Below, piece after piece: positions 44,442-46,313 of a stretch of DNA of 64,000 bases; position 1 is the first letter of the stretch, and each line of letters begins with the position of its first letter. Source of the DNA: Nocardioides nitrophenolicus (GTDB lineage Bacteria > Actinomycetota > Actinomycetes > Propionibacteriales > Nocardioidaceae). A program made the translations under genes and the position numbers. The notes beneath the pieces are model-generated. The model had not been told where the DNA came from and did no database searches. It worked only from the letters and a program-made list of their open reading frames with translations. The stretch lies in the NCBI RefSeq assembly GCF_016907515.1, contig NZ_JAFBBY010000001.1, forward strand, positions 186,001 through 250,000, given 5' to 3'.

Positions 44442-44514
44442 TGGCAGAAAATCAACGCATGCCGTCTTTTCTGCCACTGGTGGCAGGAATCTGATCAGAG
44501 CATGATTTCTGCCA
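44442..44514. promoter_or_regulatory. Four TGGCAGAAA/TTTCTGCCA sites between the GlxA regulator and a small ORF
   Basis: Site 1 TGGCAGAAAA (44442-44451), site 2 TTTTCTGCCA (44467-44476), site 3 TGGCAGGAAT (44481-44490), site 4 ATTTCTGCCA (44505-44514). Sites 1/2 are a perfect inverted pair and 3/4 one with a single mismatch; centres are 25 and 24 bp apart. Site 4 ends on the A of the small ORF start. Confidence 0.7.
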
Positions 44515-44624
44515 TGACCATCGCACTGATCCTCCTCCTGTTGCTCGCGGGCCTCGGCGTTCTCCTCGCCTGGGTCCGCCACGACGGGCTGCTCGTTCGC
44601 AAGCAGCCCGCCTGGTTCGACTGA
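44514..44624 (+). CDS. Small single-helix membrane protein
   Basis: 36 residues (40 if it starts at the in-frame ATG 44502). One strongly hydrophobic helix, IALILLLLLAGLGVLLAW (residues 3-20), then a basic tail RHDGLLVRKQPAWFD. Not recognised. It begins at the last base of a regulator site and is divergent from the GlxA gene. Support is the clean frame, membrane helix and the placed operators; homologues are unknown to me. Confidence 0.5.
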   Translation: MTIALILLLLLAGLGVLLAWVRHDGLLVRKQPAWFD

Positions 44625-44645
44625 GTCATACCGGCTCGCTGGACG

Positions 44646-44750
44646 TGCGGTTTGGTCCCAAACCGCAGTTCCGGGGGCCCGCGACGTTGCGGTTTGGTCC
44701 CAAACCGCATGAATTCGGCGCCTCTCGTTGCGGTTTGGGACCAAACCGCA
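44646..44750. repeat. Three 22-bp palindromes at four-turn spacing
   Basis: Copies at 44646-44667, 44688-44709 and 44729-44750. Each has 10-bp arms TGCGGTTTGG / CCAAACCGCA around a 2-bp core, TC in copies 1 and 2 and GA in copy 3 (i.e. inverted). Start-to-start distances are 42 and 41 bp. They fill the space between the small ORF and the rpsA terminator. Confidence 0.85.
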
Positions 44751-44772
44751 ACCAGGACAGCCCAAGAAAGAG

Positions 44773-44808
44773 CCCGAAGGCCCCGACCAAGCGGTCGGGG
44801 CCTTCGGG
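44773..44808 (-). terminator. Rho-independent terminator of rpsA
   Basis: CCCGAAGGCCCCGACC (44773-44788) pairs perfectly over 16 bp with 44793-44808, loop AAGC; on the minus strand it is followed by CTCTTTCTT. Confidence 0.9.
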
Positions 44809-44834
44809 TTCTGCTGCGGTGAAGCCTCAGGCGA

Positions 44835-46313
44835 TCAGTTGCCGCCGGTCAGCTTCTCGCGAAGCGCCTGCAGCGCCTCGTCGGACGCGAGCGAGCCGCC
44901 GCCGTTGGGGGCGTCCTCGGCCGGAGCGGAGGAGTACGAGCTCGCCTCGCCGGCCTCGATCTCGGCCTGCTTGGCGTCGGCCTGCTGCTTGACGTGGGCC
45001 TCCCAGCGAGCGTGCGCCTTGGCGTACTGCTCCTCCCACTTCGCACGCTGCTCGTCGAAGCCCTCGAGCCACTCGCCCGTCTCGGGGTCGAAGCCCTCGG
45101 GGTAGATGTAGTTGCCCTGGTCGTCGTACGTGGCCTCCATGCCGTACAGCGTCGGGTCGAACTCCTCGACGTCCGCCGCGGCAGCGGTCTCGTTGGCCTG
45201 CTTGAGCGAGAGGGAGATCCGGCGACGCTCGAGGTCGATGTCGATGATCTTGACCATGACGTCGTCGCCGACCTGGACGACCTGCTCCGGGATCTCGACG
45301 TGGCGCTCGGCCAGCTCGGAGATGTGGACCAGGCCCTCGATGCCCTCCTCGACCCGCACGAACGAGCCGAAGGGAACCAGCTTGGTGACCTTGCCCGGGA
45401 CGATCTGACCGATCTGGTGGGTCCGGGCGAAGTGCTGCCACGGGTCCTCCTGGGTCGCCTTCAGCGACAGGGAGACGCGCTCGCGGTCCATGTCGACGTC
45501 GAGGACCTCGACGGTGACCTCGTCGCCCACGGTGACGACCTCGGACGGGTGGTCGATGTGCTTCCAGGACAGCTCCGAGACGTGGACGAGACCGTCGACG
45601 CCACCGAGGTCCACGAACGCACCGAAGTTGACGATCGAGGACACGACGCCCTTGCGGATCTGGCCCTTCTGGAGCTGGGTGAGGAAGCCGTGGCGGACCT
45701 CGGACTGGGTCTGCTCGAGCCAGGCCCGGCGCGACAGGACCACGTTGTTGCGGTTCTTGTCGAGCTCGATGATCTTGGCCTCGAGGGTCTGACCGACGTA
45801 CGGCTGCAGGTCGCGGACCCGGCGCATCTCGACGAGCGAGGCGGGCAGGAAGCCGCGCAGGCCGATGTCGATGATGAGGCCGCCCTTGACGACCTCGATG
45901 ACGGTGCCCTCGACGACGCCGTCGGCCTCCTTGATCTCCTCGATCGTGCCCCAGGCGCGCTCGTACTGGGCGCGCTTCTTGGACAGGATCAGGCGACCCT
46001 CCTTGTCCTCCTTCTGGAGGACGAGGGCCTCGACCTTGTCGCCCACCTGGACGACCTCGGACGGGTCGACGTCGTGCTTGATCGACAGCTCGCGCGAGGG
46101 GATGACGCCCTCGGTCTTGTAGCCGATGTCGAGCAGTACCTCGTCACGGTCCACCTTGACGATGGTGCCGTCGACGATGTCGCCGTCGTTGAAGTACTTG
46201 ATGGTCTGGTCGATGGCGGCCAGGAAGTCAGCCTCGGAGCCGATGTCGTTGATCGCGACCTGGGGCGCGTTGTCGTCGTAGCTCGCGAGGGGCGTCGAGA
46301 GGGTGCTCGTCAT
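44835..46313 (-). CDS. rpsA: 30S ribosomal protein S1
   Basis: 492 residues. Four S1 RNA-binding repeats at about 35-104 (GDIVDGTIVKVDRDEVLLDIGYK), 121-187, 208-276 (GQIRKGVVSSIVNFGAFVDLGG) and 293-362 (GQIVPGKVTKLVPFGSFVRVEEG), then an acidic, Ala/Glu-rich tail usual in actinobacteria. Binds mRNA at the ribosome. ATG at 46313. The leader of about 85 nt may start near TACTCT at about 46400. Followed by a strong terminator. Confidence 0.96.
   Translation of the reverse strand: MTSTLSTPLASYDDNAPQVAINDIGSEADFLAAIDQTIKYFNDGDIVDGTIVKVDRDEVLLDIGYKTEGVIPSRELSIKHDVDPSEVVQVGDKVEALVLQKEDKEGRLILSKKRAQYERAWGTIEEIKEADGVVEGTVIEVVKGGLIIDIGLRGFLPASLVEMRRVRDLQPYVGQTLEAKIIELDKNRNNVVLSRRAWLEQTQSEVRHGFLTQLQKGQIRKGVVSSIVNFGAFVDLGGVDGLVHVSELSWKHIDHPSEVVTVGDEVTVEVLDVDMDRERVSLSLKATQEDPWQHFARTHQIGQIVPGKVTKLVPFGSFVRVEEGIEGLVHISELAERHVEIPEQVVQVGDDVMVKIIDIDLERRRISLSLKQANETAAAADVEEFDPTLYGMEATYDDQGNYIYPEGFDPETGEWLEGFDEQRAKWEEQYAKAHARWEAHVKQQADAKQAEIEAGEASSYSSAPAEDAPNGGGSLASDEALQALREKLTGGN

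Follow-up and report, generated by a model that had tools for sequence, protein, structure and literature searches.

Phased palindromes in Nocardioides, probably REP-like elements tied to a linked AbiEi-like and Vsr/EDxHD-like protein

A 64,000-nucleotide stretch of the Nocardioides nitrophenolicus genome (contig NZ_JAFBBY010000001.1, positions 186,001 to 250,000; hereafter the window) carries three 22-bp palindromes in a row, and the question is what kind of element they are. A preliminary description, made from the sequence alone, had left the choice between sites for cooperative binding or looping and a mobile palindrome of the REP/BIME kind (repetitive extragenic palindrome/bacterial interspersed mosaic element). 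We could verify the three palindromes at 44646-44750, in the form TGCGGTTTGG-NN-CCAAACCGCA, together with starts 42 and 41 bp apart, spacers of 20 and 19 bp and a third copy with an inverted core. The phasing had been given as exactly four helical turns; it is only approximately so, because the measured spacing corresponds to 3.9-4.0 turns at 10.5 bp per turn. The terminator on the rpsA side is indeed distinct from the palindromes and lies outside the repeat. The features are as follows.

44646..44667, first palindrome copy, with core TC; among the exact genome copies
44688..44709, second palindrome copy, also with core TC, starting 42 bp past the first; among the exact genome copies
44729..44750, third palindrome copy, with the inverted core GA, starting 41 bp past the second; among the exact genome copies
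44769..44812, minus strand, terminator-like hairpin closing the rpsA-like gene on its 3' side; inverted repeat with arms 95% complementary and, by eye, a T-rich minus-strand tail
44835..46313, minus strand, rpsA-like gene, so named in the preliminary description; from the list of open reading frames (ORFs), start from our own gene caller

The evidence set out below suggests that these palindromes are probably REP-like or REPIN-like (REP doublet forming a hairpin) elements, short, hairpin-capable and non-autonomous, whose presence is tied to a linked protein with AbiEi-like and Vsr/EDxHD-like parts. Within the window, the second and third copies stand in inverted orientation as a pair, and the segment 44684-44753, treated as single-stranded DNA, folds at -32.7 kcal/mol (z score -8.84). 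When up to one mismatch was allowed, the 10-base arm was matched 7 times in the window, these arms making up six of the matches, against 1.96 expected, and 7 was reached in one of 100 shuffles.

The preliminary description had proposed to search the genome and its relatives for the arm repeat, and a family was found in both. The source genome (G000; one contig of 5,815,017 bp) holds 39 exact copies of the 22-mer, with 0 for the reversed control, and 49 copies at up to 3 mismatches. A 20-base form was present in 11 of the 96 genomes searched, the source genome included, all of them Nocardioides (with Pimelobacter simplex). The phasing at about 41 bp is a property of the whole family: in stretches from seven genomes (G050 gave none), all 38 spacings below 100 bp measured 40 (1), 41 (34) or 42 bp (3), and G144 has five copies at 41-bp steps. 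Not all pairs are inverted, and at many single copies of the source genome a diverged second box of the TGCRGTYTSTGCCCAA type, recognized by eye, replaces the second palindrome at +41 bp. It had also been said that the spacers differ and only the palindrome is kept, which holds in part; by eye, an ATTCGG.CC-like stretch follows many genome copies, and the spacers are not fully unrelated. Hairpin pairing beyond the 22 bp was examined by a covariation test on 83 windows from G000, G034 and G014. Long symmetric arms, seen at some gene-side copies, were ruled out as a general trait because, among arm positions 11-22, only position 11 paired above the shuffled level (0.75 versus 0.46, top shuffle 0.57).

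Some further observations concern the same repeats. By eye, the TGCRGTYTSTGCCCAA box at +41 bp is often followed by a TGGTCNGACCA-like stretch (L106-L124 of the source genome, for example L118 13085-13125). At L120 11487-11799 (G000:C1:5501487-5501799), three near-identical longer tandem units stand 146 and 145 bp apart, and G175:C7:305870-306168 has a similar unit spacing of 142-143 bp. A phage or plasmid origin was considered and not retained. The 16-base core GGTTTGGNNCCAAACC occurs in 70 viral stretches (L016-L085), at one place in each, and a plasmid search gave no match for 44600-44770.

A palindrome pair about 1.13 kb apart was found to bracket a single ORF, an arrangement that recurs in four genomes. 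In the source genome this linked gene is the following.

G000:C1:5655018-5655980, minus strand, linked gene of 320 amino acids, outside the window

Homologues (E<=1e-50) are present in 72 of 215 genomes of the genus, one per genome, and flanks were read for 59 of these loci. In 56 of the 59, the proteasome gene prcA directly precedes the linked gene in the same orientation, and pafA falls inside the fetched flank in 49; an oxidoreductase gene intervenes in the source genome and others, the neighbours being prcA and pafA or the oxidoreductase gene. A palindrome-like motif in its looser form stands beside the gene at 56 of 59 loci (3' side 45, 5' side 55), against 1/59 for a control inside the gene; the stricter motif gave 36/59, with a control of 0/59. 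The flanking palindromes are absent at L145-L155, eleven loci with remoter homologues (identity no higher than 43%). Homologues of about 40-46% identity were also seen in Cellulomonas and Microlunatus records (L241, L243, L245).

In the model of the 320-residue product, an AbiEi-like domain is fused to an endonuclease domain of Vsr/EDxHD-like type. This two-domain fold is a prediction; the C-terminal domain is predicted to adopt a Vsr-type fold, and D211, E222, D224, H228 and D237 are invariant. DUF559 was matched by 9 of the 40 members (cut-off E<=0.1; lowest value 0.0021), while Pfam returned no family at E<=0.001 for four orthologues, with weak ones only at E<=10, and NCBIfam returned chance-level rows only for three orthologues. 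No intron or intein was seen with the gene. Judged from sequence identity, the linked gene appears to evolve faster than prcA, the one neighbour compared: identity to the source genome is 58.0% for the linked gene versus 76.7% for prcA, and the linked gene is the lower in 54 of 54 loci.

One explanation of this arrangement is that the protein is an AbiEi-like autoregulator, which would use the upstream pair to repress its own promoter and the dispersed sites to repress other genes. A 41-bp pair (looser motif) does lie upstream of the gene in 34 of 59 loci, and PMC7319586 gives a precedent in AbiEi and Rv2827c, whose own promoters contain 23-bp inverted repeats to which they bind. However, a palindrome also stands past the gene, starting 16 bp beyond the stop in the source genome (3' motif in 45/59), the AbiEi match covers model positions 37-171 and omits most of the N-terminal DNA-binding part, and the dispersed sites shun divergent promoter regions (1/95, see below). 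We therefore regard autoregulation as the whole explanation as very unlikely, although it could coexist with a REP-like system.

Gene and palindrome vary together across the genus. The flanking palindromes are species-specific (GCGGTTTGGTCCCAAACCGC, GCCGTTTGGTCCCAAACGGC and TGGCGTTTGGTCCCAAACGCCA, and the cores GTTTGGTCCCCAAC, GTTTGGTACCAAAC and GTTTGGTCACCAAC). GTTTGGTCCCMAAC occurs in 45 of 215 genomes (the reversed control gave 4 single hits in total) and GTTTGGTCACCAAC in 26 of 215 (control 0); the linked gene is present in 39 of the 45 GTTTGGTCCCMAAC genomes and in all 19 genomes with at least two GTTTGGTCACCAAC copies. If either criterion is taken to define a palindrome genome, the gene is present in 52 of 58, versus 20 of the 157 other genomes. 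The six palindrome genomes without it are G056, G098 (one copy), G182, G214, G218 and G219, the last four being 69-87% complete. Moreover, in 47 of the 48 genomes that could be classified (of the 59 loci), the palindromes next to the gene are of the genome-wide type, G142 being the exception. The palindrome class changes at least six times on the protein tree; an ancestry-corrected test of the co-variation is without power because only one independent pair rests on well-supported branches. Palindrome type has switched naturally several times in the genus, and the proteins concerned are sequenced, which opens the recognition code to direct testing. The highest copy number in the genus is 75, for GTTTGGTCCCMAAC in G208 (rated 70% complete). 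In G056, with 12 copies and no linked gene, the gap between the oxidoreductase gene and prcA measures 39 bp and holds a single palindrome, TGCTGCGGTTCGGGCCGAACCGCAGCA (L275, after 3343). This is as expected if a flanked gene was lost between its repeats, in one case and with a variant as the leftover palindrome.

A mechanism may thus be proposed. The palindrome that the linked protein would recognize is its own, perhaps in the form of a hairpin or of an inverted pair spaced by four turns, and there it would nick or cut; repair or copying could then spread, convert or duplicate units, mainly close to the gene and including the 41-bp arrays. The window triple would then be an array of this kind lying 3' of the rpsA-like gene. 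Recognition and mobilization by the linked protein are what we infer from this pattern, which itself (the family and its phasing, the intergenic sites at gene 3' ends, the clustering around the linked gene, the palindromes on its flanks and the match of types, together with the predicted fold of the protein) was computed directly here.

Where the copies sit bears on another explanation. The preliminary description held that copies that were single, unphased and always directly after genes would be terminators or REP elements, their spacing here being chance. They are neither single nor unphased, because pairs and arrays recur at 41 bp; the placement at 3' ends, in contrast, was found. Indeed, copies are mostly intergenic and almost solely at gene 3' ends: 95 sites were called in seven genomes (94 distinct; G014, G024, G036 and G050 in part only), with 39 in convergent and 54 in tandem contexts, one between divergent genes and one at an edge, whereas divergent gaps account for 20, 15 and 26% of the intergenic bases sampled in G000, G036 and G024. 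One pair of the source genome lies inside a called ORF. The gene caller was our own, and it also missed the linked gene in the source genome. It missed as well a possible 36-residue membrane-peptide ORF at 44514-44624 (plus strand), directly ahead of the window palindromes; if this ORF is real, their context is convergent, which our caller scored as tandem.

This placement, together with the stable hairpins, is what bidirectional transcription terminators or stabilizers of messenger RNA 3' ends would show. Nevertheless, there is no T tract at the palindromes, and a separate terminator-like hairpin is present in the window; the palindrome type shifts genome-wide with the type beside one gene, and there are only tens of copies, grouped near that gene. 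Terminators or stabilizers are hence a most improbable explanation, and any termination may arise incidentally from the positions at which copies can be tolerated.

At 12 of 20 distinct non-gene sites of the source genome (fetched stretches), the two neighbour genes also border a site in one or more of G014, G034, G056 and G036. At two of these common sites, L114:804 and L114:13733, G036 bears its own GTTTGGTCCCCAAC type, so that there the position is kept while the motif changes by species. The window's own site had no common-neighbour partner among the fetched sites.

Copies at first seemed specific to the replication terminus because dnaA lies at 2.65 Mb in the source genome. MatP binds matS sites near the replication terminus. 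By analogy, a nuclease-like protein, perhaps non-cutting, might bind phased palindromes near the terminus as a regional chromosome organizer. In line with this, 42 of 43 copies in the source genome are found no more than 1 Mb away from the antipode of dnaA (the point opposite it), site positions persist from species to species, and the phasing suits bridging. We compared gene and terminus in five complete genomes (G000, G024, G036, G050 and G055, in this order below), with the antipode of dnaA as a proxy for the terminus. The median copy offset from the gene is -5.5, -2.0, +0.6, +11.0 and +0.03 kb, and from the antipode +89, +55, -132, +77 and +71 kb; the median is therefore nearer the gene in all five and within 11 kb of it. 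Gene and antipode lie close together, and counts within 100 kb separate them in G036 only (24/31 near the gene versus 1/31 near the antipode); for gene and antipode the counts are 17 and 16 of 43 in G000, 21 and 21 of 23 in G024, 7 and 7 of 9 in G050, and 4 and 4 of 4 in G055. The median absolute distance in the source genome speaks for the organizer, with 133 kb to the antipode and a little more, 138 kb, to the gene. On the other side, listed copies are widely dispersed in G144, G116 and G132, and 157 of 215 congeners are without either palindrome type by the criteria given above. No dif-like pattern at up to 3 mismatches was detected in six genomes, and GC skew, a side check, was weak, with maxima at 2.212 Mb (G036) and 1.078 Mb (G024), 400 kb being sampled in each. 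The terminus-specific reading was dropped, as copies appear to follow the linked gene in the five complete genomes, and an organizer acting near the terminus seems unlikely.

To our knowledge, the REP systems known so far depend on HUH tyrosine transposases. The chances appear even that the elements described here represent a second, independently evolved system of the REP/REPIN type, in which a domesticated Vsr/EDxHD-type nuclease with an AbiEi-like domain would replace the HUH transposase and maintain, convert or spread species-specific palindromes read as four-turn pairs. If a REP-like population is indeed kept by a nuclease of another fold, populations of this kind have more than one origin, and the traits they have in common (flanked gene, co-variation, doublets, 3'-end placement) test what REP-like populations need. 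A literature search, with most subscription papers and preprints outside its reach, found no description of a palindrome-nuclease association.

How does this system compare with known ones? Like MatP/matS, it has palindromic sites across one chromosome region; unlike it, the sites appear gene-centred and are patchy within the genus, and the protein is different. It appears to differ from AbiEi antitoxins (6y8q, Rv2827c) by its mostly unmatched N-terminal DNA-binding part, by its dispersed sites and by its surroundings, since no AbiEii-type gene was recognized adjoining the linked gene. With Vsr-fold/EDxHD homing endonucleases such as I-Bth0305I, which we take to be of the EDxHD type, and with DUF559 proteins it appears to share the predicted C-terminal fold and the invariant residues; unlike those homing endonucleases, it has an AbiEi-like fusion, a single locus and copy per genome and its own palindromes.

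The closest likeness is to REP elements and their REP-associated tyrosine transposases (RAYTs). According to the abstract of PMC2817692, RAYT genes are flanked by REPs, the repeats co-vary and correlate with the gene, and the gene evolves fast; for some RAYTs, Nunvar et al. (PMC2817692) there report repeats accumulating near the gene. REPIN doublets are described in PMC3116915 as inverted repeats able to form a hairpin. Our system likewise shows palindromic intergenic repeats with inverted doublets and arrays, a partner gene flanked by repeats (56/59 by the looser and 36/59 by the stricter motif), a repeat type co-varying with the gene (47/48), gene presence correlating with repeats and a fast-evolving gene; as in REPINs, pairs recur, here at 41 bp, and the inverted pair of the window is foldable as a single strand. 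The REP/BIME-like architecture of the preliminary description is therefore well supported (dispersed, mostly intergenic copies, inverted pairs, a flanked co-varying gene), but the REP-type transposase it had proposed to look for was not found: Y1_Tnp (PF01797) had 0 matches in the source genome, while the control search matched in 5 of 14 known genomes, and the linked protein is of another kind, Vsr/EDxHD-like and AbiEi-like rather than HUH/Y1. Two further differences are that the outermost flanking palindromes are not inverted at every locus (G051 and G055, by eye) and that copies number in the tens rather than the usual more than 100, which counts against RAYT-REP membership. Because the traits of the abstract are present while the defining enzyme is absent and copy number is low, the system resembles RAYT-REP without being a member, and it is best read as a known, REP-like kind of system that is new as a variant by its partner enzyme.
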